Below are positions 3,639 through 55,961 of a DNA stretch of 64,000 nt, piece after piece. The notes under the pieces were generated by a model. The model ran no database searches. It worked only from the letters and a program-made list of their open reading frames with translations, and was not told the origin of the DNA. This stretch comes from Chondrilla cf. caribensis (lineage: Eukaryota > Porifera > Demospongiae > Chondrillida > Chondrillidae): positions 4,386,001 through 4,450,000 of the forward strand of contig OZ026556.1 of assembly GCA_964020155.1 (NCBI GenBank), written 5' to 3'. Both the position numbers and the translations under genes were made by a program. How positions within the stretch are numbered: the first letter of the stretch is position 1; each line of letters starts with the position of its first letter.

Positions 3639-3687
3639 ATGTACAGTGTCTTTGTTCTCTGGTTACTGCTCACTAATGCTTCTACAG
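3639..3687 (+). CDS. Gene 1 exon 1 (signal peptide exon)
   Basis: This 49-bp exon encodes MYSVFVLWLLLTNAST plus the first base of a Gly codon and ends at a donor acag|gtttgt. The peptide is a short hydrophobic signal sequence with no other content. The same exon, one residue different, sits at 9374-9422 upstream of gene 2. The phase-1 junction fits the acceptor at 4203/4204 exactly and restores the reading frame of the large second exon. The exon is too short to be found by open-frame length; it is supported by conservation across five paralogs. Confidence 0.82.
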
Positions 3688-6600
3688 GTTTGTTTCTCCC
3701 TGTGATGTATTTAGGTTTATTTGTTGTAAAGCTTAGGGGAGATTAGGGACTAGGGATTTCTCGTTAAGGTGTACAAACAAACATATAGTGCATATATCTG
3801 TGGCTACATCCGTGACTACTGCTGCTAGTGTTGTCCGGGGTGTACGGTACAGCGTGACTTGTCTCTAGCTGTTATGGTGTTATGCACAGCGGTGATGAAA
3901 GGGGTACCTTTGAGTAACTCGCCTAGTACATTTCAGACTGAAAATAGATTCATTTTGCTGCATAAAGATTTAAAGGTATCTTGTCCCTACATACCTATCT
4001 CCCTTAGCCCACATGTACATACGTACTTTCACAACACATCATTTATGTACATGTGTACTAATGTGATATTCTTGTGTTGCATATGAATGAATGTAAGTCC
4101 TTCTACTGCCTCAACAACAAATACGACAACTATTTCCCAGGGACATGAGTATCATTTGTCGACTAATAGGTTGTTATACTGTCTCTACTACCTCTTTTCC
4201 TAGGAAGAAGTGCTGTTCCATCAGCTATGACCCTGTTATCATCTGTTGAACTGTCATATTCGAGTGGAACATCACCATCTGGACAATCCTTGTCTGTTGG
4301 ACCAACATTGTCTACTAACTCGTCATCATCGTATATCGAACCAACATTGTTTGCTAACTTGTCATCATCGTACATGGAACCAACATTGTCTGCTAACTTG
4401 TCATCATCGTACATCGAACCAACATTGTCTGCTAACACGTCATCATCGTACATCGAACCAACATTGTCTGCTAACTCGTCATCATCGTACATCGAACCAA
4501 CATTGTCTGCTAACTCGTCATCATCGTACATCGAACCAACATTGTCCGCTAACTCGTCATCATCGTACATCGAACCAACATTGTCTGCTAACTCGTCATC
4601 ATCGTACATCGAACCAACATTGTCTGCTAACTCGTCATCATCGTACATCGAACCAACATTGTCTGCTAACTCGTCATCATCGTACATCGAACCAACATTG
4701 TCTACTAACTCGTCATCATCGTACATCGAACCAACATTGTCTACTAACTCGTCATCATCGTACATCGAACCAACATTGTCTGCTAACTCGTCATCATCGT
4801 ACGTCGAACCAACATTGTTTGCTAACTCGTCATCATCGTACGTCGAACCAACATTGTTTGCTAACTCGTCATCATTGTACATCGAACCAACATTGTCCAC
4901 TAACTCGTCATCATCGTACGTCGAACCAACATTGTTTGCTAACTCGTCATCATCGTACATCGAACCAACATTGTTTGCTAACTCGTCATCATCGTACATC
5001 GAACCAACATTGTCCACTAACTCGTCATCATCGTACATCGAACCAACATTGTCTGCTAACTCGTCATTATCTGTTGAGATGTCATCGTCTGTTGAACGAA
5101 CATTGTCTGTTAAGCCATCATCATTGTCTTTATCTAGTGGAACATTAGCATCTGTTCAACCATCATTATCACTTGTCGGGCAGTCATCTGCTCTTGAGTC
5201 ACAATTTCTTAAGCCATCATTTTCTATTGAGCCATCATTTTCTATTGAGCCATCATTGTCTGTTGAGCCATCATTGTCTGTTGAGCCATCATTTTCTATT
5301 GAGCCATCATTGTCTGTTGAGCCATCATTTTCTATTGAGCCATCATTGTCTGTTGAGCCATCATTTTCTATTGAGCCATCGTCGACTGTTGAGCCATCAT
5401 TGTCTGTTGAGCCATCATTTTCTATTGAGCCATCGTCGTCTGTTGAGCCATCATTTTCTATTGAGCCATCGTCGTCTGTTGAGCCATCATTGTCTGTTGA
5501 GCCATCATCATCTGTGAAACTGACATTATCTGTTAATCAGTTATCATCCTTTCTGCTACCATCATCTGTTGAGATGGCATTATTGACATTATCGTCATCA
5601 TTGTCTGCCAGACCTCCATCATCTGTTGAACCATCATCATCTGTTGAACCATCATCATCTGTTGAGCCATTATCATCTGCCGAGTCTTTTTCACCTGTTG
5701 CTGTTTCACTGTCCAGCGGACTTTTTTCATCTTTTGTGCTGTCCTCCCCTGCTAAACCATCATTACCAGTTGGACCACCCTCATCTGTTGGACCATTATC
5801 TTCTGTCGGACCATCATCTGTTGGTTCAACATTGTCTGCCACGCTATCCTCAACTATTGGAGCATCATCATCTGTTGGGCCATCACCAGTCCCATCTTCA
5901 CTTCCCCAAACATCAGCGATACAGTCAGTCTCCATCACAACCAGCTCTTTGTCCACAACCTCAATGTATCCGGAAACATCTTCTGTACCATTGCTCACTA
6001 CCACTTCTTCAGCACTCACATCCTCTGTGCTGCCCATGACTCCATCATGTGGTCCAATCCCTGATTCCACACCACTATCTCAGCCAGTATGCCCTGGGAC
6101 CACTGCCACTAGCGGACTGAATGTGATTGTCCTCCAGTCTGAGGAATACCAGTTAAAGCACTTCACTGAAGTTACCGAGGAGCAATGCTTTACAGTTTGT
6201 TGCAGCGATGACGATTGCTATTCCTTCACCCGGTCTCTGACCTCCAACGAATGTTGGTTCCACAGAAAGCATCCACTAACAGCTGTCCAATCCAGCGAGC
6301 ACCACACCACATTCTACATGGTCAGGGACAGTCCCGGTCCTTATCTGGACACCTGGGTATACAGCGGAGAAGGATGTACATCTCTACCTAGCTACTCCAG
6401 CTATTCTTTGGATACGTGCATTCCATACAGAGGACTGGACTATCAGGAGCACTCCTATCAGGTGTTCCAATTGGACTGCTATACAGATTCCAGTTTCACA
6501 TTACGTCATTTGGTGTGGTACGAGGCACCTGGGTGTACTGTCCCCAGAAATCAGTGGTCGTTGCCAAATGTGAACGTCAGTGTGAATTCGAGTAGTTGCT

Positions 6601-7307
6601 ATGGAAACGTAAGGTTCTGGTCAGTAAAGGACCAACCTCGAGACATTCCAGTAGAAGCTGTCACCGAAGTGGACAGTTTCATCCCCACCTATGTCAACTA
6701 TGTGAAGTACAGCTCCTGTTCTTCAAGCAACGTCATCAGTCGAGTATCCTACAAGACAGGTGTCTGTTATAGTGAGGACGGAGACAGTTTCATGTACGAG
6801 CAGACTACCAGTAACCCATCATTTGGGTACCAGATGAAGGTTAGGTGGTGGAGTGGGACAAGAAGCTGTTCCGGAAGTCCCTCTCAAATGTTTGATGTTG
6901 TGTGGGGATGTCAAATGACGTCAGTACTCACTGGTGTCTTCTCGTTCACAGACAGTGCTCTGTTTGCAATTCCCGGGCAGTCTATATCAGTCACACCCAC
7001 TACTACATCAACCCCGCCCACATATCCGCCTCCATCTGCAGAAGACCAATCCTCCACTATCATTGCAGTCGGTGTGTCTGTGCCTATTGTAATCATTGTG
7101 GTTGTCGTGCTGGCAGTGGTAGCGATTGTTGCTATGGTGATGTTCAGAGGGAAGAAAGTGAAATCCATCAGATCACCTGACAACCTCACCAACTTTCCGG
7201 AGTGTAAATTGGACATGTTTGGCTATGGAGGGGAGCCCAATACGGTGACTATACGTAACCCCCTTAACACCCATGATGCTGGGAATATTGAGAGTGGTTG
7301 GAATTAG
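3639..7307 (+). CDS. Gene 1: short-form mucin-stalked receptor paralog
   Basis: Exons 3639-3687 and 4204-7307 (intron 516 bp, phase 1, acceptor ttttcctag) give 1050 residues. Order: signal peptide; a Ser-rich stalk with about 19 copies of a 13-residue SSSYIEPTLSANS-like repeat and then 6-residue PSFSIE/PSLSVE repeats; a conserved Ser/Thr linker; one membrane-proximal 14-Cys module; a TM helix (7056-7145); and a tail with NTVTIRNPLN. Unlike genes 2-5 it has no N-terminal module array, so the stalk follows the signal peptide directly. The C-terminal module and linker are almost identical in DNA to those of gene 2. It is probably a type I surface glycoprotein. I do not recognise the family. The ATG at 4227 is internal to exon 2 and is not the start. 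Confidence 0.85.
4309..5068 (+). repeat. 39-bp coding minisatellite, gene 1 stalk
   Basis: About 19 tandem copies of a 39-bp unit encode SSSYIEPTLSANS-type peptides. Third-position and a few replacement changes (I/V/M, S/F, A/T) separate the copies. The unit is a multiple of three, so copy-number change keeps the frame. The opposite strand is also open and would encode an acidic repeat; I treat that as a composition artefact. Confidence 0.95.
5211..5512 (+). repeat. 18-bp coding minisatellite, gene 1 stalk
   Basis: About 16 tandem copies of an 18-bp unit encode alternating PSFSIE and PSLSVE hexapeptides, with PSSSVE variants near the end. It forms the second half of the mucin-like stalk. The alternation suggests expansion by a 36-bp or larger dimer unit. 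Confidence 0.92.
6088..6990 (+). other. Membrane-proximal module of gene 1
   Basis: A single 14-Cys module: head with QC, VCC, DDC and EC cysteines, then FTLRHLVWYEAPGC and VRWWSGTRSC halves ending in FDVVWGC. The same module occupies the membrane-proximal position in all five paralogs and is distinct from the repeated ITWGC modules. It is followed by a Pro/Thr-rich 30-residue spacer and the TM helix. Confidence 0.85.
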
Positions 7308-9373: not shown

Positions 9374-9422
9374 ATGTACAGTGTCTTTGTTCTCTGGTTA
9401 CTGCTCGCTAATGCTTCTACAG
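9374..9422 (+). CDS. Gene 2 exon 1 (signal peptide exon)
   Basis: Encodes MYSVFVLWLLLANAST plus one base and ends at the donor acag|gtttgt. The flanking sequence for more than 100 bp on both sides is nearly identical to gene 1 exon 1. Joining phase 1 to the acceptor at 10168/10169 (gtag|gtgaagc) gives Gly-Glu-Ala-Ala-Cys, the mature N-terminus shared by genes 2-5. Confidence 0.85.
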
Positions 9423-12400
9423 GTTTGTTTCTCCCTGTGATGTATTTAGGTTTATTTGTTGTAAAGCTTAGGGAAGATTAGGGACTAGGCATTTCTTGTT
9501 AAGGTGTACGAACAAACAGATAGTGCATAAATCTGTGGCTACATCCGTGACTACTGCTGCTTGTGTTGTCCGGGGTGTACGGTACGGCGTGACTTGTCTC
9601 TAGCTGTTATGGTGTTATAGGCCTATACTCTGCGGGCCGGGGAAGAAAGGTGTTGTAGCTACCTTGGAGTATCTTGGAAAGGTGAAACCTTTGAGTATCT
9701 TGCTTAGAACATTTCAGACTGAATATAGATTCACTACCGCATTAAGATCTCTTTCCAGCACACGTTGTTATAGTGCGTGAATCTACACTAACTTTCGCGC
9801 TCCATACGTACGTGGATTTTGCCATTATGGCCGTCCAAGAGAAAATCTTTGAAAAAATCTTAAGGATTTCTTTCTTTTCTATGAACGACGGTGGCAATTT
9901 CTTCGGCCACTACCTTTAGATGATATTCCCACTCCTTCCTACAATACGTGTGTGTGTTAAAGGTAAACGGGGACTTTTGCGTTCGTTCGTTTTGATTCGA
10001 TTTGATTTTGATTCACGAACTTTGACAATGTGTAACTCGATTATTAAATTAAATGTATACATGCATGTAAATATGCGTACAGTATAAGTATTATTGAAGT
10101 TGCATATCTTCTATGGTACCAACGAAGGATACTCTGTTATATGTGTGTATATCTATACAAAAACGTAGGTGAAGCTGCTTGTACAAGTACAGATGCCAAA
10201 ACGAGTTATGTCTCAAGCACATACAGTATTCAGACATTATCTGGCATGACCAAGGATGACTGTGTTGAAGCATGCTGCAGTAATACCAACTGCTATGCCG
10301 TGTTGATCTACAGGAGCAGTGGGACCTGCTACTTGAGAAGTACCTTCCCGTCTAGTGCAGTATCATCGTCTTCATCTTACTACCTTTACTACCTGGTCCG
10401 AGATTCCGTTTCTAATTATTTGGATGTTCGAAAGTATGGAAACAGCGACTGTTCTGGTAGTGTGACCACATATCGTAGCTATGCCATTGATTCCTGTGTG
10501 CCCTATCTAGAGCTGGCCTACACCGAGCATGCCTACCACTTGTATGAGTTGGAATCCTCCACCAGTTCATCTGACTTCACCGTCCGTCACTTAGTGTGGT
10601 TTGAAGCTCCAGGCTGTACTGCTGCGGAGAATGAATGGACCACACCAGACATCAACGAAACCCAGGGAAGTTCCGATTGCTACGACTATTATCGTAATTA
10701 CGAAGTTGGCAGTACTCCAAGAGATATTCCAGTGACTGGTGTGACCACTGAAGACAACTACCAACCACAGTATGTGATATGGAGGAAGTATGCGAATACC
10801 TGCGATGAAGGTCCACCATCGAGAGTATCCTACAGTGTTGGACAATGCCACGAGGAGGAGACTCTGAGAGACAGTTTCAAGTTTGAGAGTACAGGAACCC
10901 ATCCGACAGAAGGATATCAGATGGAGGTGAGCTGGTGGGACTCATCCACTACTTGTGGCGGCTCTCCAAGTTCCCAATTCAACATTACTTGGGGATGTCG
11001 TTCTACTTATCCCGGAAGTGGATACTTCACATTCAGCTCCACTTCACTGTCATCCTCCTGTTCAGCTACTACCACAACAGGTGTATCACAGTCTGTGAGT
11101 ACATCGTACAGTATAACATCATATTCGTACACAAGTTGGGATTCCTGTTTTAGCTCATGTTGCAGCAGATCAGACTGTTATGCCTTCATGCTGAGTTCCT
11201 CAAGATGCTACATTCTTCGGCAGTTTTCATCCAGTGTAACATCTTCCAGTACTACCTACACCCTCTACTACATGGTTCGCGATGCAAAGAGCAAACCTGG
11301 TGCATTCCTGGATACTCGCGTGTACAACAGTGAAGGTTGTGGAGGATCAGTGACAGACTACATCAGTTACCCCATTGAATCGTGCGTCCCCTACAAGTAC
11401 CTCGCCTACCACAACAATGCATATCAAATGTTCCAAGTAGATTCGTACACCAGCACTAGAAGCTTTGTTCTTCGTCACTTGGTGTGGTTCGAAGCTCCCG
11501 GATGTACTGCACCAGAGAGTGATTGGGACACTCCAGACATCAACACGACTCGTAACAGCGACTCATGCTACAAGAACTACACATTCTACGAACTGAAGCA
11601 TGCTCCGAGAGACATTCCAATAACGGCTGTATCAACCCAAGACAACTACGAACCTCAGTATGTGATATGGAGGAAGTATGCCGATACATGCAGTGGAGGT
11701 CCACCTAGAAGGGTATCCTACAGTGTTGGACAATGCCACGAGGAGGAGACTCTGAGAGACAGTTTCAAGTTTGAGAGTACAGGAACCCATCCGGCAGAAG
11801 GATATCAGATGGAGGTGAGCTGGTGGGACTCATCCACTACTTGTGGCGGCTCTCCAAGTTCCCAATTCAACATTACTTGGGGATGTCATTCTACTTATCC
11901 CGGAAGTGGATACTTCACATTCAGCTCCACTTCACTGTCATCCACCTGTTCAGCTACTACCACAACGGGTGTATCACAGTCTGTGAGTACATCGTACAGT
12001 ATAACATCATATTCGTACACAAGTTGGGATTCCTGTTTCAGCTCATGTTGCAGCAGATCAGACTGTTATGCCTTCATGCTGAGTTCCTCCAGATGCTACA
12101 TTCTTCGGCAGTTTTCATCCAGTGTAACATCTTCCAGTACTACCTACACCCTCTACTACATGGTTCGTGACGGTAAGAGCAAACCTGGTGCATTCCTGGA
12201 TACTCGTGTGTACAACAGTGAAGGTTGTGGAGGATCAGTGATAGACTACATCAGTTACCCCATTGAATCGTGCGTCCCCTACAAGTACCTCGCCTACCAC
12301 AACAATGCATATCAAATGTTCCAAGTAGATTTGTACACCAGCACTAGAAGCTTTGTTCTTCGTCACTTGGTGTGGTTCGAAGCTCCCGGATGTACTGCAC

Positions 12401-15400
12401 CAGAGAGTGATTGGGACACTCCAGACATCAACACGACTCGTAACAGCGACTCATGCTACAAGAACTACACATTCTACGAACTGAAGCATGCTCCGAGAGA
12501 CATTCCAATAACGGCTGTATCAACCCAAGACAACTACGAACCTCAGTATGTGATATGGAGGAAGTATGCCGATACATGCAGTGGAGGTCCACCTAGAAGG
12601 GTATCCTACAGTGTTGGACAATGCCACGAGGAGGAGACTCTGAGAGACAGTTTCAAGTTTGAGAGTACAGGAACCCATCCGGCAGAAGGATATCAGATGG
12701 AGGTGAGCTGGTGGGACTCATCCACTACTTGTGGCGGCTCTCCGAGTTCCCAATTCAACATTACTTGGGGATGTCGTTCTACTTATCCCGGAAGTGGATA
12801 CTTCACATTCAGCTCCACTTCACTGTCATCCACCTGTTCAGCTACTACCACAACGGGTGTATCACAGTCTGTGAGTACATCGTACAGTATAACATCATAT
12901 TCGTACACAAGTTGGGATTCCTGTTTTAGCTCATGTTGCAGCAGATCAGACTGTTATGCCTTCATGCTGAGTTCCTCCAGATGCTACATTCTTCGGCAGT
13001 TTTCATCCAGTGCAACATCTTCCAGTACTACCTACACCCTCTACTACATGGTTCGCGATGCAAAGAGCAAACCTGGTGCATTCCTGGATACTCGCGTGTA
13101 CAACAGTGAAGGTTGTGGAGGATCAGTGATAGACTACATCAGTTACCCCATTGAATCGTGCGTCCCCTACAAGTACCTCGCCTACCACAACAATGCATAT
13201 CAAATGTTCCAAGTAGATTCGTACACCAGCACTAGAAACTTTGTTCTTCGTCACTTGGTGTGGTTCGAAGCTCCCGGATGTACTGCACCAGAGAGTGATT
13301 GGGACACTCCAGACATCAACATGACTCGTAACAGCGACTCATGCTACAAGAACTACACATTCTACGAACTGAAGCATGCTCCGAGAGACATTCCAATAAC
13401 GGCTGTATCAACCCAAGACAACTACGAACCTCAGTATGTGATATGGAGGAAGTATGCCGATACATGCAGTGGAGGTCCACCTAAACGAGTATCCTACAGT
13501 GTTGGACAATGCCACGAGGAGGAGACTCTGAGAGACAGTTTCAAGTTTGAGAGTACAGGAACCCATCCGGCAGAAGGATATCAGATGGAGGTGAGCTGGT
13601 GGGACTCATCCACTACTTGTGGCGGCTCTCCAAGTTCCCAATTCAACATTACTTGGGGATGTCGTTCTACTAATCCAGGAAGTGGATACTTCACATTCAG
13701 CTCCACTTCACTGTCATCCTCCTGTTCAGCTACTACCACAACGGGTGTATCACAGTCTGTGAGTACATCGTACAGTATAACATCATATTCGTACACAAGT
13801 TGGGATTCCTGTTTTAGCTCATGTTGCAGCAGATCAGACTGTTATGCCTTCATGCTGAGTTCCTCAAGATGCTACATTCTTCGGCAGTTTTCATCCAGTG
13901 CAACATCTTCCAGTACTACCTACACCCTCTACTACATGGTTCGTGACGGTAAGAGCAAACCTGGTGCATTCCTGGATACTCGTGTGTACAACAGTGAAGG
14001 GTGTGGAGGATCAGTGACAGACTACATCAGTTACCCCATTGAATCATGCGTCCCCTACAAGTACCTCGCCTACCACAACAATGCCTATCAAATGTTCCGT
14101 ATAGATTCGTACACCAGCACTAGAAGCTTTGTTCTTCGTCACTTGGTGTGGTTCGAAGCTCCCGGATGTACTGCACCAGAGAGTGATTGGGACACTCCAG
14201 ACATCAACACAACTCGTAACAGCGACTCATGCTACAAGAACTACACATTCTACGAACTGAAGCATGCTCCGAGAGACATTCCAATAACGGCTGTATCAAC
14301 CCAAGACAACTACGAACCTCAGTATGTGATATGGAGGAAGTATGGTGAAACATGCAGTGGAGGTCCACCTAAAAGGGTATCCTACAATGTTTCACAGTGC
14401 CACAAGGAGGAGACTCTGAGAGACAGTTTCAAGTTTGAGAGTACAGGAACCCATCCGGCAGAAGGATATCAGATGGAGGTGAGCTGGTGGGACTCATCCA
14501 CTACTTGTGATGGCTCTCCAAGTTCCCAATTCAACATCACTTGGGGATGTCGTTCTACTTATCCCGGAAGTGGATACTTCACATTCAGCTCCACTTCACT
14601 GTCATCCTCCTGTTCAGCTACTACCACAACGGGTGTATCACAGTCTGTTAGTACATCATACAGTATAACATCATATTCGTACACAAGTTGGGATTCCTGT
14701 TTCAGCTCATGTTGCAGCAGATCAGACTGTTATGCCTTCATGCTGAGTTCCTCAAGATGCTACATTCTTCGGCAGTTTTCATCCAGTGCAACATCTTCCA
14801 GTACTACCTACACCCTCTACTACATGGTTCGTGATGGTAAGAGCAAACCTGGTGCATTCCTGGATACTCGTGTGTACAACAGTGAAGGGTGTGGAGGATC
14901 AGTGACAGACTACATCAGTTACCCCATTGAATCGTGCGTCCCCTACAAGTACCTCGCCTACCACAACAATGCATATCAAATGTTCCAAGTAGATTTGTAC
15001 ACCAGCACTAGAAGCTTTGTTCTTCGTCACTTGGTGTGGTTCGAAGCTCCCGGATGTACTGCACCAGAGAGTGATTGGGACACTCCAGACATCAACACAA
15101 CTCGTAACAGCGACTCATGCTACAAGAACTACACATTCTACGAACTGAAGCATGCTCCGAGAGACATTCCAATAACGGCTGTATCAACCCAGGACAACTA
15201 CGAACCTCAGTATGTGATATGGAGGAAGTATGGTGAAACATGCAGTGGAGGTCCACCTAAAAGGGTATCCTACAATGTTTCACAGTGCCACAAGGAGGAG
15301 ACTCTGAGAGACAGTTTCAAGTTTGAGAGTACAGGAACCCATCCGGCAGAAGGATATCAGATGGAGGTGAGCTGGTGGGACTCATCCACTACTTGTGGCG

Positions 15401-18400
15401 GCTCTCCAAGTTCCCAATTCAACATTACTTGGGGATGTCGTTCCACTAATCCAGGAAGTGGATACTTCACATTCAGCTCCACTGGACTGTCATCCACCTG
15501 TTCAGCTACGTCCACAACGGGTGTATTTCAGTATGTTAGTATATCAACATACAGCTTTCGAACATATTCTTACACAACTTGGGATTCCTGTTACAGTACA
15601 TGTTGCAGCTGGTCAAACTGCCATGCTTTCATGCTGAGTTCCTCAAGATGCTACGTTCTATACTACTTTTCACCCAGTGTTCCAACCTCCAGTACTACCT
15701 ACACCCTCTACTACATGGTTCGTGATGGTAAGAGCAAACCTGGTGTATTTCTGGATACTCGCGTGTACAACAGTGAAGGTTGTGGAGGATCAGTGACAGA
15801 CTACATCAGTTACCCCATTGAATCATGCATCCCCTACAAGTACCTCGCCTACCACGAACATGCCTATCAAATGTTCCGTGTAGATTCGTACACCAGCACT
15901 AGAAGCTTTGTTCTTCGTCACTTGGTGTGGTTCGAAGCTCCCGGATGTACTGCACCAGAGAGTTATTGGGACACTCCAGACATCAACACAACTCGTAACA
16001 GCGACTCATGTTACAAGAACTACACATTCTATGAACTGAGGCATGCTCCGAGAGACATTCCAATAACGGCTATATCAACCCAAGACAACTACGAACCTCA
16101 GTATGTGATATGGAGGAAGTATGGTGAAACATGCAGTGGAGGTCCACCATCGAGAGTAGCCTACAATGTTTCACAGTGCCACGAGGAGGAGACTCTGAGA
16201 GACAGTTTCAAGTTTGAGAGTACAGGAACCCATCCGACAGAAGGATATCAGATGGAAGTGAGCTGGTGGGACTCATCCACTACTTGTGGCGGCTCTCCAA
16301 GTTCCCAATTCAACATCACTTGGGGATGTCGTTCTACTAATCCAGGAAGTGGATACTTCACATTCAGCTCCACTTCACTGTCATCCACTTGTTCAGCTAC
16401 TACCACAACGGGTGTATTTCAGTATGTTAGTATATCAACATACAGCTTTCGAACATATTCTTACACAACTTGGGATTCCTGTTACAGTACATGTTGCAGC
16501 TGGTCAAACTGCCATGCTTTCATGCTGAGTTCCTCAAGATGTTATGTTCTACTATACTTTTCACCCAGTGTTCCAACCTCCAGTACTACCTACACCCTCT
16601 ACTACATGGTTCGTGACGGTAAGAGCAAACCTGGTGTATTTCTGGATACTCGTGTGTACAACAGTGAAGGGTGTGGAGGATCAGTGACAGACTACATCAG
16701 TTACCCCATTGAATCCTGCGTCCCCTACAAGTACCTCGCCTACCATGAACATGCCTATCAAATGTTCCAAGTAGATTCGTACACCAGCACTAGAAGCTTT
16801 GTTCTTCGTCACTTGGTGTGGTTCGAAGCTCCCGGATGTACTGCACCAGAGAGTGATTGGGACACTCCAGACATCAACATGACTCGTAACAGCGACTCAT
16901 GCTACAAGAACTACACATTCTACGAACTGAGGCATGCTCCGAGAGACATTCCAATAACGGCTGTATCAACCCAAGACAACTACGAGCCTCAGTATGTGAT
17001 ATGGAGGAAGTATGGTGAAACATGCAGTGGAGGTCCACCTAAAAGAGTATCCTACAGTGTTGGACAATGCCATGAGGAGGAGACTCTGAGAGACAGTTTC
17101 AAGTTTGAGAGTACAGGAACCCATCCGACAGAAGGATATCAGATGGAGGTGAGCTGGTGGGACTCATCCACTACTTGTGGCGGCTCTCCAAGTTCCCAAT
17201 TCAACATTACTTGGGGATGTCGTTCCACTAATCCAGGAAGAGGAGACTTCACATTCAGCTCTGCTGGACTGTCATCCACCTGTTCAGCTACTACCACAAC
17301 GGGTGTATTTCAGTATGTTAGTATATCAACATACAGCTTTCGAACATATTCTTACACAACTTGGGATTCCTGTTACAGTACATGTTGCAGCTGGTCAAAC
17401 TGCCATGCTTTCATGCTGAGTTCCTCAAGATGCTATGTTCTAAACTACTTTTCACCCAGTGTTCCAATCACCAGTACTACCTACACCCTCTACTACATGG
17501 TTCGCGATGGTAGTGCTACTCCCAGGGGATTTGTGGATACTCGTATCTACAGCAGCAGTTCTTGCAGTGGATCGATCAGCTCATACACCAGTCTTCCTCT
17601 GGGTCATTGCACCCGGTACACCTACCTGGAGTATACTGATCACACCTATCAGATGCTGTATTTGGATTCTTATACTGACCGAAGTAATTATGTTCTACGT
17701 CATCTTGTATGGTATGACGCTCCAGGATGTACTGTTAATGAGAGTCAATGGGACACTGCAGATATCAACACAACACGTCGAAGTGGAGACTGCTTTCAAG
17801 ATTACAACTTTTGGACAGTGAAATACGCTCCATACAGTAGGAGTGTGGGGTCAGTGGTGACAGGAGCTGATAACTTTGTCCCCTCGTATGTGAACCACAG
17901 GAAGTACAGCACTCCTTGCTCCTCAACAGTGACAGAACAGGTCTCTTATCAGCTTGGATACTGCTACGAAGGTAATGGTGGGAGCTTTACCATCCAGCGA
18001 ACAGTCAATCATCCTACCTCCGGTTACCAGATGAAGGTTAGAATATGGAGCGGGTCGACAGTTTGTTCAGGAGATCCTTCAGAAATCTTCAATCTGGTGT
18101 GGGGATGTCGTGTGGCAACATCATTCAGTGGTAGTTTCACTTTCACAAGTAGTGCATCCTACACTGTTCCTCAAGGGTTTGAGTTTTCAACTTCCACTTC
18201 CTCGATGACCTCGACGATGTCTATGTCATCTTCCATCCCTCCAACTACATCTGTGATGTTCAGTTCATCATCCATCTCTTCATTTTCTCCGTTGCTATCA
18301 AGCAGTACTGTCTTGTCATCTATGACATCTGCTGTGTCATCATCATCTATTAGATCCTTATCCTCTCTAGGACCATCATCATCTGTTAAGCCGACATTGT

Positions 18401-20730: not shown

Positions 20731-20886
20731 TGTATTTAGGTTTACTAACTCAATAGTGTGTAACTGACTGAGAGTGATATTGGAATTAAGTTTGTTTAGT
20801 ATTGCTTATATCATCTGATTAAAATGTTCAACATGGATTATTACAACATAGACACATTACATGTAACAAATTCATATTAAAATTAT

Positions 20887-21590: not shown

Positions 21591-21592
<2 letters not shown>

Positions 21593-21637: not shown

Positions 21638-21638
<1 letters not shown>

Positions 21639-22279: not shown

Positions 22280-22303
22280 ATACACATATATCGCTGACAC
22301 CTG

Positions 22304-22381: not shown

Positions 22382-22430
22382 ATGTACTTTTTCGTCGTTG
22401 TGTCTTTGCTGCTTTCCTTGGCTACGACAG
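22382..22430 (+). CDS. Gene 3 exon 1 (signal peptide exon)
   Basis: Encodes MYFFVVVSLLLSLATT plus one base, with donor acag|gtttgt. Same length and phase as exon 1 of genes 1 and 2, but the peptide is closer to genes 4-5. It joins the acceptor cctag|gtgaagctgcc at 23265/23266. Confidence 0.85.
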
Positions 22431-33288: not shown

Positions 33289-33343
33289 ATGGTCGTCATG
33301 TACTTCCTCGCAGCTGTTTTGCTGCTTTCCTCGGCTACGTCAG
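33289..33343 (+). CDS. Gene 4 exon 1 (signal peptide exon)
   Basis: Encodes MVVMYFLAAVLLLSSATS plus one base and ends at tcag|gttagt. Two in-frame ATGs exist (33289 and 33298); the second aligns with the start of gene 3, and I gave the longer form. It joins the acceptor at 33969/33970 in phase 1. Confidence 0.82.
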
Positions 33344-42300: not shown

Positions 42301-43967
42301 CCACTCCTTTGTCTTCTAGTTCGTCAACTACCTCTTTTTCATTGTCCATTTCTTCGTCTCCTCTGTTGTCTACCTCATTATTATCATCTGCTGAAGTAAC
42401 ATCTACTATTGAGGCATCATCACCTGTTCAGCCGTCTTCATCTGTCCCACCATCATCATCTGTTGGGCAATCCCCATCTGTCACATCATCGTCTGTTCGG
42501 CCGTCTTCATCCTTTAGGCCATCATCATCTGTTGGGCCATCACCAGTCCCATCTTCACTTCCCCAAACATCAGTGATACAGTCGGTCTCCACCACAACCA
42601 GCTCTTTGTCCACAACCTCAATGTATCCGGAAGCATCTTCTGTACCATTGCTCACTACCACTTCTTCAGCGCCCACATCCTCTGCGCTGCCCATGACTCC
42701 ATCATGTGGTCCAATCCCTGATTCCACACCACTATCTCAGCCAGTATGCCCTGGGACCACTGCCACCAGTGGATCGAATGTGATTGTCCTCCAGTCTGAC
42801 GAATACCAGTTGAAGCACCTCACTGGAGTTACCGAGGAGCAATGCTTTACAGTTTGTTGCAGCGATGACGATTGCTATTCCTTCACCCGCTCTCTGACCT
42901 CCAACGAATGTTGGTTCCACAGAAAGCATCCACCAACAGCTGTCCAATCCAGTGAGCACCACACCACATTCTACATGGTCAGGGACAGTCCCGGTCCTTA
43001 TCTGGACACCTGGGTATACAGCGGAGAAGGATGTACATCTCTACCTAGCTACACCAGCTATTCTTTGGATACGTGCATTCCATACAGAGGACTGGACTAT
43101 CAGGAGCACTCCTATCAGGTGTTCCAATTGGACTGCTATACAGATTCTGGTTTCACATTACGTCATTTGGTGTGGTACGAGGCACCTGGGTGTACTGTCC
43201 CAAAAAATCAGTGGTCATTGCCAAATGTGAACGTCAGTGTGAATTCGAGTAGTTGCTATGGAAACATAAGGTTCTGGTCAGTAAAGGACCAACCTCGAGA
43301 CATTCCAATAGAAGCTGTCACCGAAGTGGACAGTTTCATCCCCACCTATGTCAACTATGTGAAGTACAGCTCCTGTTCTTCAAGCAACGTCATCAGTCGA
43401 GTATCCTACAAGACAGGTGTCTGTTATAGTGAGGACGGAGACAGTTTCATGTACGAGCAGACTACCAGTAACCCATCTTTTGGGTACCAGATGAAGGTTA
43501 GGTGGTGGAGTGGGACAAGAAGCTGTACCGGAAGCCCCTCTCAAATGTTTGATGTTGTGTGGGGATGTCAAATGATGTCAGTGCTCACTGGTGTCTTCTC
43601 GTTCACAGACAGTGCTCTGTTTGCAATTCCCGGGCAGTCTATATCAGTCAAACCCACTACTACATCAACCCCGCCCACATACCCACCTCCATCTGCAGAA
43701 GACCAATCCTCCACTATCATTGCAGTCGGCGTGTCTGTGCCTATTGTAATCATTGTGGTTGTCGTACTGGCAGTGGTAGCGATTGTTGCTATGGTGATGT
43801 TCAAAGGGAAAAGAAGTCAAACTTTGAATTTAACCAATGACCTACCAGCCCATCCAAAGGAGAAATGGGATATGTTTGATGATTTTGAGGAGCACAATGT
43901 AATGACCATACGCAACCCTTTGAGCAATATTGATTTCTCGAAGATGGATGGGGAAGATGATGACTGA
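33289..43967 (+). CDS. Gene 4: 10-module receptor paralog
   Basis: Exons 33289-33343 and 33970-43967 (intron 626 bp) give 3350 residues. Layout: signal peptide, module 1, five type-A modules, three type-B modules (the last divergent), an STSMPTSSSS stalk, the membrane-proximal module, TM helix (43713-43802), and a tail of a second class (HPKEKWDMFDDFEEHNVMTIRNPLS, an acidic DGEDDD end). The tail and 3' UTR are nearly identical to gene 5, whereas the module array resembles genes 2 and 3, so the gene looks mosaic. An alternative in-frame ATG at 33918 would read MILDSLLVLRLCLLLILG straight into the module (see findings). Surface receptor of unknown ligand. Confidence 0.9.
33681..33723. repeat. 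18-bp perfect inverted repeat in gene 4 intron 1
   Basis: ATAGATATTGTATACTCA (33681-33698) is perfectly complementary to 33706-33723 with a 7-nt spacer ggttacg. The identical structure is kept in gene 5 intron 1 (48172-48214), although the surrounding intron sequence has accumulated changes. Confidence 0.85.
33970..41969 (+). repeat. Gene 4 module array (9 tandem modules)
   Basis: Modules start near 33970, 34860, 35748, 36636, 37524, 38412, 39300, 40191 and 41082. The copies 36636-37523 and 37524-38411 encode proteins that differ at a single residue by my reading (Y or N after CRST) and differ at only a few bases, so they are a very recent duplication. Confidence 0.94.
41970..42740 (+). repeat. 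Gene 4 mucin-like stalk (54-bp repeats)
   Basis: Four copies of an approximately 54-bp STSMPTSSSSTS unit, then the Ser/Pro-rich and conserved linker sequence shared with gene 3. The copy number differs from gene 3 (about 5) and gene 5 (7). Confidence 0.9.
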
Positions 43968-45095: not shown

Positions 45096-45139
45096 CGTGG
45101 AAGCCAGTTTTAATTGGCGGCATCACGTGATTTGAGCTG

Positions 45140-45148
45140 GAAGACAAT
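45140..45148 (+). repeat. 9-bp target-site duplication, left
   Basis: GAAGACAAT directly abuts the left end of the 2.4-kb element. The same 9-mer follows its right end at 47557-47565. The paralogous gene 4 upstream region has one copy and no insertion (near 33066). Confidence 0.85.
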
Positions 45149-47556: not shown

Positions 47557-47565
47557 GAAGACAAT
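47557..47565 (+). repeat. 9-bp target-site duplication, right
   Basis: GAAGACAAT immediately after the right TIR. From here the sequence resumes homology with the gene 4 upstream region. Confidence 0.85.
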
Positions 47566-47727
47566 GTAATATGAACTGTTGCCAGGGAAACGCTCCCCTC
47601 TTGGAATGCTATGACAGAGGCAGGTTCTGTTTGGACAACTGATGGAATTAGCACTCTTTATTTCGTGAATATACTTGACCTCCCGAAACATGGACCATCT
47701 CGGTCTATTGCTGGCACTATGACACCT

Positions 47728-47755
47728 TGGTACACATGACCAGTACCGGATGTGC
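47728..47755 (+). promoter_or_regulatory. Conserved 5' block upstream of gene 5 exon 1
   Basis: Identical over its length to the gene 4 block at 33238-33265 and at the same distance from the signal exon. A promoter or 5' UTR candidate. Confidence 0.45.
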
Positions 47756-47778
47756 ACGAAAGAACCGACCGAAGCCAA

Positions 47779-47833
47779 ATGGTCGTCATGCACTTCCTCG
47801 CAGCTGTTTTGCTGCTTTCTTCGGCTACGTCAG
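47779..47833 (+). CDS. Gene 5 exon 1 (signal peptide exon)
   Basis: Encodes MVVMHFLAAVLLLSSATS plus one base, donor tcag|gttagt. One residue differs from gene 4. It joins the acceptor at 48549/48550 in phase 1. Confidence 0.82.
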
Positions 47834-50800
47834 GTTAGTTTGTGTAGTTGTTAATGGGAAAGTGTATTGCAAGCGTGCGTATTGTCAAGTTTTCTGGTAC
47901 GTAGTCATTGTCGAAACACTACCATAGTCGAGAAATGCCATATCAAACGAACCACGTACAAGGACCTTGGATAGGCTTTCGTGAGCGCATTGTTGCGCGA
48001 TTTAACTATCTTTCTTAATTTTCCTACTTATTTGTCTGTTTTAAGCTTTCTTTTTGTCATCTACCGGGCACCTTCATAGCAGCTTCACCCCTCGCAGCTG
48101 AAGGTGTGTCCCTATGATAAGGATATGAGGCAAAGCGAAATTGCATAAGCGCAGTTGCATGCAACCCTATAATAGATATTGTATACTCAGGTTACGTGAG
48201 TATACAATATCTATGATACAATTAAGATGGTATTTAAAATGATATATCTCTTTATTTTAATGGGGTTCGGTATAAGGTCGCCTCAAAGTAGTGGCATCAA
48301 CCGGACCCAGTGTCCCTGCACTGTACTTTGATCCTGCATTCCCACCGACCAATACATGGGAGGGATATAGAACCAGGTAGACAAGTTAATCTACAGTTTG
48401 TCTTATCGGATTATTTGTATTGGAATAACTTCAAGTTTCACAAATTTCTTTAATTTGCTCATGATAATGTGAACATATCATTAATATGTAGGATTATGTG
48501 ATACTAGATTCCCTTCTTGTGTTACAGTTATGTTTATTACTGATCCTAGGTGAAGCTGCCTGTACAAGTACAGAAGCAAAAGAGAGTTATGTCTCAACCT
48601 CAACATACAGAATTCAGACATTAACTGGCATGACCAAGGATGACTGTGTTGAATCATGCTGCAGTAATACCAACTGCTATGCCGTGTTAATCTTAAGGAA
48701 CACTGGGACCTGCTACCTGACAAGAACCTTTTCGTCTAGTGCAGTATCATCGTCTACATCTTACTACCTTTACTACCTTGTCCGGGACTCCGTTTCTAAT
48801 TATTTGGATGTTCGAAAGTATGGAAATAGCGACTGTTCTGGTAGTGTGACCACATATCGTAGCTATGCCATTGATTCCTGTGTGCCCTATCTAGAGCTGG
48901 CCTACACCGAACATGCCTACCACTTGTATGAGTTGGAATCCTCCACCAGTTCATCTGACTTCACCGTCCGTCACTTAGTGTGGTTTGAAGCTCCAGGTTG
49001 TACTGCTGCGGAGAATGAATGGACCACACCAGACATCAACGAAACCCAGGGAAGTTCGAATTGCTACGACTATTATCGTAATAACGAAGTTGACAGTAAT
49101 CCAAGAGATATTCCAGTGACTGGTGTGACCACTGAAGACAACTACCAACCACAGTATGTGATATGGAGGAAGTATGCTAGCACCTGTGATGAAGGTCCAC
49201 CATCGAGAGTATCCTACAGTGTTGGACAATGCCACGAGGAGGAGACTCTGAGAGACAGTTTCAAGTTTGAGAGTACAGGAACCCATCCGACAGAAGGATA
49301 TCAGATGGAGGTGAGCTGGTGGGACTCATCCACTACTTGTGGTGGTTCTCCAAGTTCCCAATTCAACATTACTTGGGGATGTCGTTCTACCTATCCAGGA
49401 AGTGGATACTTCACATTCAGCTCCACTTCACTGTCATCCACTTGTTCAGCTACGTCCACAACGGGTGTATCACAATATGTGAGTACATCATACCGACTAG
49501 CATCATATTCGTACACAAGTTGGGATTCCTGTTTCAGCTCATGTTGCAGCAGATCAGACTGTTATGCCTTCATGTTGACATCATCAGTATGCTACATTCT
49601 TCGGCAGTTTTCATCCAGTGTACCAACCTCCAACTCATATTACACCCTCTACTACATGGTTCGTGACGGCAAGAGCAAACCTGGTGCATTCCTGGATACT
49701 CGCGTGTACAACAGTGAAGGGTGTGGAGGATCAGTGACAGACTACATCAGTTACCCCATTGAATCGTGCATCCCCTACAAGTACCTCGCCTACCACAACA
49801 ATGCCTATCAATTCTTCCAAGTAGATTCGTACACCAGCACTAGAAGCTTTGTTCTTCGTCACTTGGTGTGGTTCGAAGCTCCCGGATGTACTGCACCAGA
49901 GAGTGATTGGGACACTCCAGACATCAACACAACTCGTAACAGCAACTCGTGCTACAAGAACTACACATTCTACGAACTGAAGCATGCTCCGAGAGACATT
50001 CCAATAACGGCTATATCAACCCAAGACAACTATGAACCTCAGTATGTGATATGGAGGAAGTATGCCGATACATGCAGTGCAGGGCCACCTAAAAGGGTAT
50101 CCTACAGTGTTGGACAGTGCCACGAGGAGGAGACTCTGAGAGACAGTTTCAAGTTTGAGAGTACAGGAACCCATCCGGCAGAAGGATATCAGATGGAGGT
50201 GAGCTGGTGGGACTCATCCACTACTTGTGGTGGCTCTCCAAGTTCCCAATTCAACATCACTTGGGGATGTCGTTCTACCTATCCCGCGAGTGGATACTTC
50301 ACATTCAGCTCCACTTCACTGTCATCCACCTGTTCAGCTACCACCACAACGGGTGTATCACAATATGTGAGTACATCATACCGACTAGCATCATATTCGT
50401 ACACAAGTTGGGATTCCTGTTTCAGCTCATGTTGCAGCAGATCAGACTGTTATGCCTTCATGTTGACATCATCAGTATGCTACATTCTTCGGCAGTTTTC
50501 ATCCAGTGTACCAACCTCCAACTCATATTACACCCTCTACTACATGGTTCGTGACGGCAAGAGCAAACCTGGTGCATTCCTGGATACTCGCGTGTACAAC
50601 AGTGAAGGGTGTGGAGGATCAGTGACAGACTACATCAGTTACCCCATTGAATCGTGCATCCCCTACAAGTACCTCGCCTACCACAACAATGCCTATCAAT
50701 TCTTCCAAGTAGATTCGTACACCAGCACTAGAAGCTTTGTTCTTCGTCACTTGGTGTGGTTCGAAGCTCCCGGATGTACTGCACCAGAGAGTGATTGGGA

Positions 50801-53800
50801 CACTCCAGACATCAACACAACTCGTAACAGCAACTCGTGCTACAAGAACTACACATTCTACGAACTTAAGCATGCTCCGAGAGATATTCCAATAACGGCT
50901 GTATCAACCCAAGACAACTACGAACCTCAGTATGTGATATGGAGGAAGTATGCCAATACATGCAGTGCAGGACCACCTAAAAGGGTATCCTACAGTGTTG
51001 GACAGTGCCACGAGGAGGAGACTCTGAGAGACAGTTTCAAGTTTGAGAGTACAGGAACCCATCCGGCAGAAGGATATCAGATGGAGGTGAGCTGGTGGGA
51101 CTCATCCACTACTTGTGGTGGCTCTCCAAGTTCCCAATTCAACATTACTTGGGGATGTCGTTCTACCTATCCCGCGAGTGGATACTTCACATTCAGCTCC
51201 ACTTCACTGTCATCCACCTGTTCAGCTACCACCACAACGGGTGTATCACAATATGTGAGTACATCATACCGACTAGCATCATATTCGTACACAAGTTGGG
51301 ATTCCTGTTTCAGCTCATGTTGCAGCAGATCAAACTGTTATGCCTTCATGTTGACGTCATCAGTATGCTACATTCTTCGGCAGTTTTCATCCAGTGTACC
51401 AACCTCCAACTCATATTACACCCTCTACTACATGGTTCGTGACGGTAAGAGCAAACCTGGTGCATTCCTGGATACTCGCGTGTACAACAGTGAAGGTTGT
51501 GGAGGATCAGTGACAGACTACATCAGTTACCCCATTGAATCGTGCGTCCCCTACAAGTACCTCGCCTACCACAACAATGCCTATCAAATGTTCCAAGTAG
51601 ATTCATACACCAGCACTAGAAGCTTTGTTCTTCGTCACTTGGTGTGGTTCGAAGCTCCCGGATGTACTGCACCAGAGAGTGATTGGGACACTCCAGACAT
51701 CAACACGACTCGTAACAGCAACTCGTGCTACAAGAACTACACATTCTACGAACTGAAGCATGCTCCGAGAGATATTCCAATAACGGCTATATCAACCCAA
51801 GACAACTACGAACCTCAGTATGTGATATGGAGGAAGTATGCCGATACATGCAGTGCAGGACCACCTAAAAGGGTATCCTACAGTGTTGGACAGTGCCACG
51901 AGGAGGAGACTCTGAGAGACAGTTTCAAGTTTGAGAGTACAGGAACCCATCCGGCAGAAGGATATCAGATGGAGGTGAGCTGGTGGGACTCATCCACTAC
52001 TTGTGTCGGCTCTCCAATTTCCCAATTCAACATTACTTGGGGATGTCGTTCTACCTATCCCGCGAGTGGATACTTCACATTCAGCTCCACTTCACTGTCA
52101 TCCACTTGTTCAGCTACGTCCACAACGGGTGTATCACAATATGTGAGTACATCATACCGACTAGCATCATATTCGTACACAAGTTGGGATTCCTGTTTCA
52201 GCTCATGTTGCAGCAGATCAGACTGTTATGCCTTCATGTTGACGTCATCAGTATGCTACATTCTTCGGCAGTTTTCATCCAGTGTACCAACCTCCAACTC
52301 ATATTACACCCTCTACTACATGGTTCGCGATGGTAAGAGCAAACCTGGTGCATTCCTGGATACTCGCGTGTACAACAGTGAAGGGTGTGGAGGATCAGTG
52401 ACAGACTACATCAGTTACCCCATTGAATCATGCGTCCCCTACAAGTACCTCGCCTACCACAACAATGCCTATCAATTCTTCCAAGTAGATTCGTACACCA
52501 GCACTAGAAGCTTTGTTCTTCGTCACTTGGTGTGGTTCGAAGCTCCCGGATGTACTGCACCAGAGAGTGATTGGGACACTCCAGACATCAACACGACTCG
52601 TAACAGCAACTCGTGCTACAAGAACTACACATTCTACGAACTGAAGCATGCGCCGAGAGACATTCCAATAACGGCTGTATCAACCCAAGACAACTACGAA
52701 CCTCAGTATGTGATATGGAGGAAGTATGCCGATACATGCAGTGGAGGTCCACCTAAAAGGGTATCCTACAGTGTTGGACAGTGCCACGAGGAGGAGACTC
52801 TGAGAGACAGTTTCAAGTTTGAGAGTACAGGAACCCATCCGGCAGAAGGATATCAGATGGAGGTGAGCTGGTGGGACTCATCCACTACTTGTGGTGGCTC
52901 TCCAAGTTCCCAATTCAACATTACTTGGGGATGTCGTTCCACTAATCCAGGAAGTGGATACTTCACATTCAGCTCCACTTCACTGTCATCCACCTGTTCA
53001 GCTACTACCACAACGGGTGTATCACAATATGTGAGTACATCATACCGAATAGCGTCATATTCGTACACAACTTGGGATTCCTGTTTCAGCTCATGTTGCA
53101 GCAGATCAAACTGTTATGCCTTCATGTTGACATCTTCAGTATGCTACATTCTTCGGCAGTTTTCATCCAGTGTACCAACCTCCAACTCATATTACACCCT
53201 CTACTACATGGTTCGCGATGGTAGTGCTACTCCCAGGGGATTTGTGGATACTCGTATCTACAGCAGCAGTTCCTGCAGTGGATCGATCAGCTCATACACC
53301 AGTCTTCCTCTGGGTCATTGCACCCGATACACCTACCTGGAGTATACTGATCACACCTATCAGATGCTGTATTTGAATTCTTATACTGACCAAAATAATT
53401 ACGTTCTTCGTCATCTTGTATGGTATGACGCTCCAGGATGTACTGTTGATGAGAGTCAATGGGACACTGCAGATATCGACACGACACGTCGAAGTGGAGA
53501 TTGCTTTCAAGATTACAACTTTTGGACAGTGAAATACGCTCCATACAGTAGGAATGTGGGGTCAGTGGTGACAGGAGCTGATAACTTTGTCCCCTCGTAT
53601 GTGAACCACAGGAAGTACAGCACTCCTTGCTCCTCAACAGTGACAGAACAGGTCTCTTATCAGCTTGGATACTGCTACGAAGGTAATGGTGGGAGCTTTA
53701 CCATCCAGCGAACAGTCAATCATCCTACCTCCGGTTACCAGATGAAGGTTAGAATATGGAGCGGGTCGACAGTTTGTTCAGGAGATCCTTCAGAAATCTT

Positions 53801-55961
53801 CAATCTGGTGTGGGGATGTCGTGTGGCAACATCATTCAGTGGTAGTTTCACTTTCACAAGTAGTGCATCCTACACTGTTCCTCAAGGGTTTGAGTATTCA
53901 ACTTCCACTTCCTCGATGACCTCAACAATGTCTTCATCATCCACCTCTTCCTCCTCTACTTCATCGTCCACCTCTATGCCTACTAGTTCGTCGTCTACCT
54001 CTTCGTCCTCTACTTCATCGTCCACCTCTATGCCTACTAGTTCGTCATCTACCTCTTCGTCCTCTACTTCATCGTCCACCTCTATGCCTACTAGTTCGTC
54101 ATCTACCTCTTCATCCTCTACTTCATCGTCCACCTCTATGCCTACTAGTTCATCATCCACCTCTTCGTCTTCTACTTCATTGTCCACCTCCATGCCTACT
54201 AGTTCGTCATCTACCTCTTCGTCCTCTACTTCATCGTCCACCTCTATGCCTACTAGTTCGTCATCTACCTCTTCATCGTCTACTTCATCGTCAACCTCTA
54301 TGCCTACTAGTTCATCATCTTTCTCTTTGTCTTCTACATTATCACCATCCTCTATCTCCACTACTTCCTCATCCACTCCTTTGTCTTCTAGTTCGTCAAC
54401 TACCTCTTTTTCATTGTCCATTTCTTCGTCTCCTCTCTTGTCTACCTCATTATCATCATCTGCTGAAGTAACATCTACTATTGAGGCATCGTCACCTGTT
54501 CGGCCGTCTTCATCTGTCCCATCATCATCATCTGTTGGGCAATCCCCATCTGTCCCATCATTGTCTGTGATACAGTCGGTCTCCACCACAACCAGCTCTT
54601 TGTCCACAGCCTCAATGTATCCGGAAGCATCTTCTGTACCATTGCTCACTACCACTTCTTCAGTGCCCACATCCTCTGCACTGCCCATGACTCCATCATG
54701 TGGTCCCATCCCTGATTCCACACCACTATCTCAGCCAGTATGCCCTGGGACCACTGCCACCAGTGGATTGAATGTGATTGTCCTCCAGTCTGAGGAATAC
54801 CAGTTGAAGCACCTCACTGGAGTTACCGAGGAGCAATGCTTTACAGTTTGTTGCAGCGATGACGATTGCTATTCCTTCACCCGGTATCCGACCTCCAACG
54901 AATGTTGGTTCCACAGAAAGCATCCACTAACAGCTGTCCAATCCAGTGAGCACCACACCACATTCTACATGGTCAGGGACAGTCCCGGTCCTTATCTGGA
55001 CACCTGGGTGTACAGCGGAGAAGGATGTACATCTCTACCTAGCTACACCAGCTATTCTTTGGATACGTGCACACCATACAGAGGACTGGACTATCAGGAG
55101 CACTCCTATCAGGTGTTCCAATTGGACTGCTATACAGATTCCGGTTTCACATTACGTCATTTGGTGTGGTACGAGGCACCTGGGTGTACTGTCCCCAGAA
55201 ATCAGTGGTCATTGCCAAATGTGAACGTCAGTGTGAATTCGAGTAGTTGCTATGGAAACGTAAGGTTCTGGTCAGTAAAGGACCAACCTCGAGACATTCC
55301 AATAGAAGCTGTCACCGAAGTGGACAGTTTCACCCCTACCTATGTCAACTATGTGAAGTACAGCTCCTGTTCTTCCAGCAACGTCATCAGTCGAGTATCC
55401 TACAAGACAGGTGTCTGTTATAGTGAGGACGGAGACAGTTTCATGTACGAGCAGACTACCAGTAACCCATCTTTTGGGTACCAGATGAAGGTTAGGTGGT
55501 GGAGTGGGACAAGAAGCTGTTCCAGAAGTCCATCTCAAATATTTGATGTTGTGTGGGGATGCCAAATGACATCAGTGCTCACTGGTGTCTTCTCGTTCAC
55601 AGACAGTGCTCTGTTTGCAATTCCCGGGCAGTCTATATCAGTCAAACCCACTACTACATCAACCCCGCCCACATACCCGCCCCCATCTGCAGAAGATCAA
55701 TCCTCCACTATCATTGCAGTCGGTGTGTCTGTGCCTATTGTAATCATTGTGGTTGTCGTACTGGCAGTGGTAGCGATTGTTGCTATGGTGATGTTCAAAG
55801 GGAAAAGAAGTCAAACTTTGAATTTAACCAATGACCTACCAGCCCATCCAAAGGAGAAATGGGACATGTTTGATGATTTTGAGGAGCACAATGTAATGAC
55901 CATACGCAACCCTTTGAGCAATATTGATTTCGAGAAGATGGATGGGGAAGATGATGACTGA
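47779..55961 (+). CDS. Gene 5: 7-module receptor paralog
   Basis: Exons 47779-47833 and 48550-55961 (intron 716 bp) give 2488 residues. Layout: signal peptide, module 1, five modules with a third head type (type C: GVSQYVSTSYRLASYS, FMLTSSVC), the last of which has the divergent SATPRG body, a long STSMPTSSSS stalk (seven repeats), the membrane-proximal module, TM helix (55707-55796), and a tail nearly identical to gene 4. There are no type-A or type-B heads. An alternative in-frame ATG at 48498 gives MILDSLLVLQLCLLLILG. It converges on the minus-strand PIK3R5-like gene, whose stop codon is 523 bp away. Confidence 0.9.
48172..48214. repeat. 18-bp perfect inverted repeat in gene 5 intron 1
   Basis: The same two 18-bp arms and 7-nt spacer as in gene 4 intron 1 (33681-33723), unchanged. 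Confidence 0.85.
48230..48319. mobile_element. ~90-bp insertion specific to gene 5 intron 1
   Basis: Gene 4 and gene 5 intron 1 align on both sides, but gene 5 has about 90 extra bases (tatttaaaatgat...gtgtccctgc) 15 bp after the inverted repeat. No clear target duplication was seen. It is either an insertion in gene 5 or a deletion in gene 4. Confidence 0.55.
48550..53883 (+). repeat. Gene 5 module array (6 tandem modules)
   Basis: Modules start near 48550, 49443, 50331, 51219, 52107 and 52995, with 888-bp period. Modules 2-6 share the type-C head and are highly similar to one another. Their bodies match those of genes 2-4, so heads and bodies have different degrees of divergence between genes. 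Confidence 0.94.
53884..54735 (+). repeat. Gene 5 mucin-like stalk (seven 54-bp repeats)
   Basis: Seven tandem copies of a 54-bp unit encoding STSSSSTSSSTSMPTSSS, followed by Ser-rich sequence and a shortened version of the conserved linker (the PSSLPQTS part is missing). It is the longest stalk of this repeat family in the cluster, attached to the shortest multi-module array. Confidence 0.92.

Follow-up and report, generated by a model that had tools for sequence, protein, structure and literature searches.

Five same-strand genes at positions 3639-55961 of a 64,000-nucleotide window of Chondrilla cf. caribensis DNA (bases 4386001-4450000 of contig C11, in a genome of 137 Mb and 37 contigs) form a tandem cluster coding for giant, modular, mucin-stalked proteins with a single predicted membrane pass. 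The new observation is that silent sites, too, are homogenised between genes across the ectodomain and membrane helix, while the tails and most flanks have diverged. We suggest that the cluster may encode multivalent, probably glycan-binding recognition or adhesion receptors with one common binding surface and partly different outputs, a tentative reading to which we assign a probability of about 0.45. The self/non-self receptors of sponges are still unsettled, and the locus provides a specific, testable candidate family.

Each gene consists of a signal exon and one giant exon. All splice sites were set by consensus alone, and every signal-peptide exon ends in a phase-1 donor. The features are as follows, in window positions:

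Gene 1, signal-peptide exon: 3639..3687, + strand, MYSVFVLWLLLTNAST
Gene 1, exon 2: 4203..7307, + strand; repeat stalk; membrane-proximal module 6078-6965; transmembrane helix 7053-7145; tail 7146-7307
Gene 2, signal-peptide exon: 9374..9422, + strand
Gene 2, exon 2: 10168..20730, + strand; nine PAN-body modules 10174-18159; stalk; membrane-proximal module 19501-20388; transmembrane helix 20476-20568; tail 20569-20730
Gene 3, signal-peptide exon: 22382..22430, + strand, MYFFVVVSLLLSLATT
Gene 3, exon 2: 23265..32402, + strand; eight modules 23271-30368; stalk; membrane-proximal module from 31170; transmembrane helix 32148-32240; tail 32241-32402
Gene 4, signal-peptide exon: 33298..33343, + strand; alternative in-frame ATG at 33289
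Gene 4, exon 2: 33969..43967, + strand; nine modules 33975-41960; stalk; membrane-proximal module 42735-43622; transmembrane helix 43710-43802; tail 43803-43967
Gene 5, signal-peptide exon: 47788..47833, + strand; alternative in-frame ATG at 47779
Gene 5, exon 2: 48549..55961, + strand; six modules 48555-53873; stalk; membrane-proximal module 54729-55616; transmembrane helix 55704-55796; tail 55797-55961

Exon 2 of genes 1-5 encodes 1034, 3520, 3045, 3332 and 2470 residues, respectively, and contains 1, 10, 9, 10 and 7 modules of ~296 residues, 37 in total. The shared plan is a series of modules, a Ser/Thr-rich stalk, a membrane-proximal module, one membrane helix, and a tail of 53-54 residues. 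The stalks are 262-625 residues long with 42-69% Ser+Thr and tandem repeats, and thus qualify as mucin-type. An earlier, sequence-only reading of this DNA had described a tandem cluster of five same-strand paralogs coding for giant, mucin-stalked, single-pass receptors with 1-10 large modules each, and this description stands; the claim that all five genes follow the same plan holds for genes 2-5 but not for gene 1, which has the stalk and membrane-proximal module without an N-terminal array. The gene 1 stalk has 20 N-glycan sequons and the stalks of genes 2-5 have none. At window positions 4301-5071, the gene 1 stalk is encoded by 19.8 tandem copies of a 39-bp unit (95% matches), giving 13-residue units that mostly carry a sequon, a composition that differs from the stalks of genes 2-5. 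Open frames of up to 10.7 kb, with a ratio of replacement to silent divergence (pN/pS) of 0.28-0.34 in the four groups measured, are far beyond chance. The predicted anatomy points to a cell-surface receptor or adhesin of the type-I membrane glycoprotein class.

The homogenisation follows the position of a module in the protein. Within position classes, DNA identity is 92.5-99.4% overall: 95.2-96.9% for N-terminal modules, 95.4-99.4% for the central modules of genes 2-4, 97.2-98.9% for those of gene 5, 95.3-97.9% for the last one or two central modules of genes 2-4, 92.5-98.7% for pre-stalk modules, and 96.8-98.0% for membrane-proximal modules. Between the N-terminal, central, pre-stalk, and membrane-proximal classes, identity falls to 47.6-69.4%, so the modules that the sequence-only reading called almost identical in DNA are so within classes but not across them. 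Its claim of strong homogenisation is borne out by the low silent divergence between genes. The membrane-proximal module, present once per gene, has a pS of 0.034-0.079 in all ten gene pairs, and the values are 0.094-0.105 for N-terminal and 0.034-0.149 for pre-stalk modules (six pairs each). Low silent divergence is beyond the reach of protein constraint, which makes copying between genes the simplest cause.

The 3' border of homogenisation is the inner face of the membrane. In nine gene pairs (4-5 excluded), third-position differences are 0.03-0.12 up to the helix, rise to 0.20 in the ten-codon window at the border and to 0.58 in the first tail window, and stay at 0.31-0.60 through the tail. 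Likewise, pS is 0.00-0.11 in the helix, and in nine of the ten gene pairs it is 0.39-0.81 in the tail. At the 5' border, identity rises where exon 2 begins. The 300-bp flanks (upstream, both intron ends, and downstream) are 57-71% identical in eight of the ten gene pairs, compared with 59.9% on average and 69.2% at most in 20 random pairs; only one of 32 flank values (71%) exceeds the random maximum. BLAST aligned short stretches of 76-82 bases at 77-79% identity between gene 3 and genes 4 and 5, in introns or upstream regions. The flanks of genes 1-2 (67-88%) and genes 4-5 (83-95%) are more alike, indicating that recent duplication also contributes.

These borders bear on the idea that the cluster encodes structural or adhesive cell-coat glycoproteins, such as giant epithelial or matrix mucins, whose arrays were homogenised passively by unequal crossing-over and conversion and whose tails would differ because they lie outside the repeats. 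The Ser/Thr-rich stalks, the sequons of the gene 1 stalk, the weakly constrained stalk repeats, the purifying selection on the modules, and the tails, in which no signalling motif was found, all fit such a coat. However, the membrane-proximal module and the helix are single-copy in each gene, not arrayed, and yet are homogenised between genes, and the borders do not coincide with the ends of the arrays but with the beginning of exon 2 and the inner membrane face. We regard a cell coat as unlikely.

The module combines a recognisable domain with an unmatched body. Profile matches and the cysteine pattern place the first ~80 residues in the PAN/apple/MANEC clan. Against Pfam, exon 2 of gene 2 scores 72.2 bits with KIAA0319_N (cut-off 27), 42.7 with MANEC (25.5), and 39.0 with PAN_3 (21.1), and exon 2 of gene 5 scores 46.8, 27.8, and 35.1 bits with the same profiles, all above cut-off, although whole-exon scores add up repeats and so profit from module arrays. 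The third exon scanned, from a further family gene on contig C3 described below, also exceeds the PAN_3 cut-off. Single modules are mostly just below the cut-offs (PAN_3 20.7 versus 21.1 at best), with eight of ten modules listed at E <= 10. A scan of the genome found two stretches, one on contig C3 and one in gene 2, that pass the PAN_3 cut-off singly, and a third that reaches it only together with its neighbours. Five cysteines (C30, C34, C35, C40, and C52, in the pattern C..C-C..C..C) are invariant in 11 sequences. When the PAN profile was compared with the PDB, five of the six listed chains were MIC4, HGF (three), and L2, at E 0.15-0.4.

The remaining ~220 residues are Cys-rich and have no significant match in Pfam, nor by sequence in the PDB, with body and whole-module profiles; this body would be an undescribed domain. 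The family was previously called unrecognised, which remains apt for the body but not for the PAN-type domain, whose profile scores over whole exons pass the Pfam cut-offs. We found no allorecognition family with matching domain content in Pfam and a small literature sample, the only places covered. Among the papers listed in literature searches on PAN/apple domains in sponges, none mentions 'PAN domain' and one, on a sea anemone, mentions 'apple domain', which leaves absence from print unproven. Pattern scans of GTDB contigs (32 matches) and IMG/VR (44 matches) yielded no confirmed relative. Two database matches were taken as chance: CfaA_B_C in one module (E 0.041-0.046) and a glycoside hydrolase in the PDB with the whole-module profile (E 0.33). 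The two halves of the body (module codon columns 86-306) align weakly with each other (hhalign score 19.2, probability 3.8%), a score reached by two of 300 column shuffles, which is suggestive of an old internal duplication that we do not claim.

PAN domain and body behave as cassettes that are exchanged separately. Up to codon column 75, nearly all informative sites in the pre-stalk module of gene 5 agree with the other, central modules of that gene, and from column 83 onward nearly all agree with the pre-stalk modules of genes 2-4. Gene 2 switches in the same way in its own pre-stalk module, with the other PAN type, and there are a few exceptions on both sides. In gene 5, five modules carry a PAN type of its own, which is 87.6% identical in DNA to the central PAN of genes 2-4 and sits on bodies that are 96.4% alike.

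Shared outside and different inside, the cluster has a selection-like structure in its sequence record. Gene conversion leaves the same arrangement in the pair Siglec-11/Siglec-16, which is why we favour a common surface with different outputs. Repeated gene conversion or unequal exchange would keep a single binding surface common to the five receptors, leaving promoters, signal exons, and tails free to differ, so that one ligand could be read out in several ways. With so many module copies, the receptors would bind a repeated ligand with avidity, and this ligand would most likely be the surface glycans of other cells, be they own, foreign, or microbial. Glycans are proposed because the apple-domain proteins nearest in profile, MIC4, L2, and HGF, bind sugars. 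The PAN domain at the tip, the part of the protein most changed between genes, may carry what specificity differences exist.

Several observations weigh against this proposal of a shared surface with different outputs. First, the borders of conversion could simply follow past divergence, without selection. Second, the surface is not fully shared, since central PAN types differ by gene. Third, the outputs could be alike: the tails of genes 1-3 belong to one broad type and are mutually related, those of genes 4-5 form another, and DMF...TIRNPL is kept in all five. Not every gene has its own tail, as the tails of genes 4 and 5 are nearly the same (pS 0.04, pN 0.01) and their flanks are alike. Fourth, a pattern search for immunoreceptor tyrosine-based inhibitory motifs (ITIMs), YxxPhi, and acidic dileucine motifs found none in the five window tails or the C3 tail, and inspection by eye found no charged residue in the membrane helices; without either feature, no known paired-receptor signalling route is visible. 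Fifth, the likeness of the PAN domain to sugar binders is a lead only, as the PDB matches are not significant, and two AlphaFold2 models are poor (mean pLDDT, the predicted local distance difference test score, 35.6 and 36.3); one of them has a strand-helix-strand-strand block at residues 22-56 with pLDDT 61-70 and the remainder below 50. As an observation on the tails themselves, DMF and TIRNPL are retained though the rest has diverged, making them a candidate adaptor-binding motif with no known match here.

The same domain likeness could point to pattern-recognition or symbiont-handling receptors, whose arrays would serve feeding, symbiont choice, or defence by binding glycans of microbes. 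Sponges both filter microbes and harbour them, invertebrate immunity commonly uses tandem receptor families, and the closest apple-type domains in the PDB, albeit with matches short of significance, are known sugar binders. The tails, in which no recognised immune signalling motif was found, speak against it, and we hold this role to be improbable.

Overall the modules are under purifying selection, with pN/pS of 0.31 in central, 0.28 in N-terminal, 0.34 in pre-stalk, and 0.29 in membrane-proximal modules. In the central classes pN/pS is lower for the PAN domain than for the body (0.15 versus 0.22, 0.19 versus 0.31, and 0.12 versus 0.16). The N-terminal, or tip, PAN has 24 replacement and 14 silent changes versus 13 and 23 in the body across four genes, with a Fisher p of 0.036 that comes from one of eight groups, is uncorrected, and would fail after correction. 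Between gene 5 and genes 2, 3, and 4, the tip PAN has pN 0.090-0.095 and pS 0.101-0.104, and the body of the tip module has pN 0.010-0.015 and pS 0.091-0.105. Genes 2 and 3 have nearly the same tip PAN (pN 0.012). These values give a hint only of tip PAN diversification.

In an allorecognition locus, the receptors would be polymorphic between individuals and decide whether sponge tissues fuse or reject each other. In favour of this, the surface receptors are tandem, cassette-built, and single-pass, and the genome is sponge-like. The replacement excess of the tip PAN and its high pN in gene 5 go in the same direction, and the repeatable graft specificity of sponges points to a polymorphic genetic system (PMC5450542). 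However, the data are one assembly in which no second haplotype is seen, the four module groups are constrained, and the tip PAN signal is offset by its uncorrected test, the stronger constraint on central PANs, and the near identity of the gene 2 and 3 tips. Concerted evolution, moreover, makes paralogs alike, opposing paralog diversity. The tandem, homogenised receptors of the sequence-only reading stand, but its suggestion that this could be such a locus is not supported so far, with pN/pS at ~0.3 and only the tip PAN hinting at diversification. Allorecognition is possible but unproven, a live reading that we think improbable and weaker than that of receptors with a shared surface.

A more novel reading, which we consider doubtful, takes the cluster for a self/non-self or paired-receptor system of sponges founded on apple-type domains, in which a conversion-maintained giant ectodomain that reads one ligand would be shared, the tip PAN diversified, and the tails different. 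The ligand might possibly be a copy of the ectodomain on another cell. If true, this would be an allorecognition or recognition chemistry distinct from the immunoglobulin, lectin, and aggregation-factor types. An Amphimedon grafting transcriptome is reported to show no significant enrichment for aggregation-factor-mediated adhesion (PMC5450542), which leaves room for other receptors.

A central module query matched at least 41 places in the genome, and a gene 1 body query also at least 41, 37 in the window and four on contig C3. The further family gene lies at C3:2536082-2541243, with a candidate signal exon at C3:2534953-2535028. Its modules are in two large frames separated by ~100-200 bases. 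The first frame ends in a consensus donor and the second is preceded by an acceptor in the same phase, from which we infer one gene with two module-module-stalk exons and the helix and tail in the second only. By our reading, this gene has no membrane-proximal module, and less similarity is left between its two copies (pS 0.25 and 0.29).

A genome scan with PAN_1 picked out seven stretches, of which C25 holds five and C19 and C3 one each. The C25 genes were rejected as members: those examined have PAN domains in right-handed beta-helix proteins, another family. Part of C25:2073001-2297000 holds several near-identical frames of 900-980 residues with PAN_1 inside such a protein, a separate local gene family, and one scanned frame matched Beta_helix, DUF1565, and GH141_M. 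The C19 stretch gave no family match on scanning. Downstream of the cluster, a possible PI3K p101-like adapter gene lies on the - strand at window positions 58436-60689 (PF10486, 18.2 bits, below the cut-off of 23); its frames are interrupted by tandem repeats, and the adjoining frame 59526-60689 gave no family. Just left of the window on C11, two frames jointly hold a split Forkhead domain, and others resemble ATAD5 by eye, with no Pfam match for the one scanned; all of these are ordinary neighbours of the cluster. The mitochondrial contig C37 (19,283 bases) carries COX1 with TGA read as Trp, 24 tRNA calls, and an ATP-synthase subunit C gene that scores 53.2 bits with Pfam ATP-synt_C (cut-off 24); mitochondrial atp9 in an animal is a mark of sponges, and these features point to a demosponge.

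Compared with known systems, the modules resemble the PAN/apple/MANEC clan (Pfam PAN_3, MANEC, KIAA0319_N) in their first ~80 residues and cysteine pattern, but here the domain is fused to an unmatched ~220-residue body and arrayed up to ten times over a mucin-like stalk. Abalone VERL is a giant egg receptor with tandem ZP-type repeats under concerted evolution. The cluster proteins are likewise giant surface proteins of tandem modules homogenised by concerted evolution; they differ in being built from PAN and unmatched body, and in being homogenised between genes too. Sponge aggregation factors are secreted and carry Calx-beta and Wreath domains. Like them, the cluster proteins would be large glycosylated molecules of cell recognition in sponges, but a membrane helix anchors them, and a Pfam scan of exon 2 from genes 2 and 5 and of the first of the C3 exons found no Calx-beta match. 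Aggregation factors, by comparison, are extracellular proteoglycan complexes (PMC11999971). The Hydractinia Alr complex is similar as a tandem set of single-pass surface receptors in an early-branching animal, and its 41 proteins have V-set and I-set immunoglobulin-type domains (PMC11999971). In contrast, Pfam gave no V-set, I-set, or other immunoglobulin-type domain at E <= 0.1 in the same three exons, or at E <= 5 in exon 2 of gene 1.

A close parallel is with the paired receptors Siglec-11/Siglec-16 and CD300A/CD300C, which are neighbouring genes with ectodomains alike and tails that differ (PMC5701461 and PMC12447643). Siglec-11 and Siglec-16 undergo gene conversion and are described as paired receptors that keep a similar ligand preference (PMC5701461). 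In the window, too, ectodomains are homogenised and tails are not, except for the nearly identical tails of genes 4-5. The opposing signalling motifs of paired receptors were not found, in that the five window tails and the C3 tail have no ITIM and the helices no charged residue; the cluster also differs from the Siglec and CD300 pairs in its non-immunoglobulin domains and in having five genes, not two. Paired-receptor logic is known from vertebrate immune cells; should other individuals and species show the pattern as well, this logic would have arisen separately in an early-branching animal, on a different domain.

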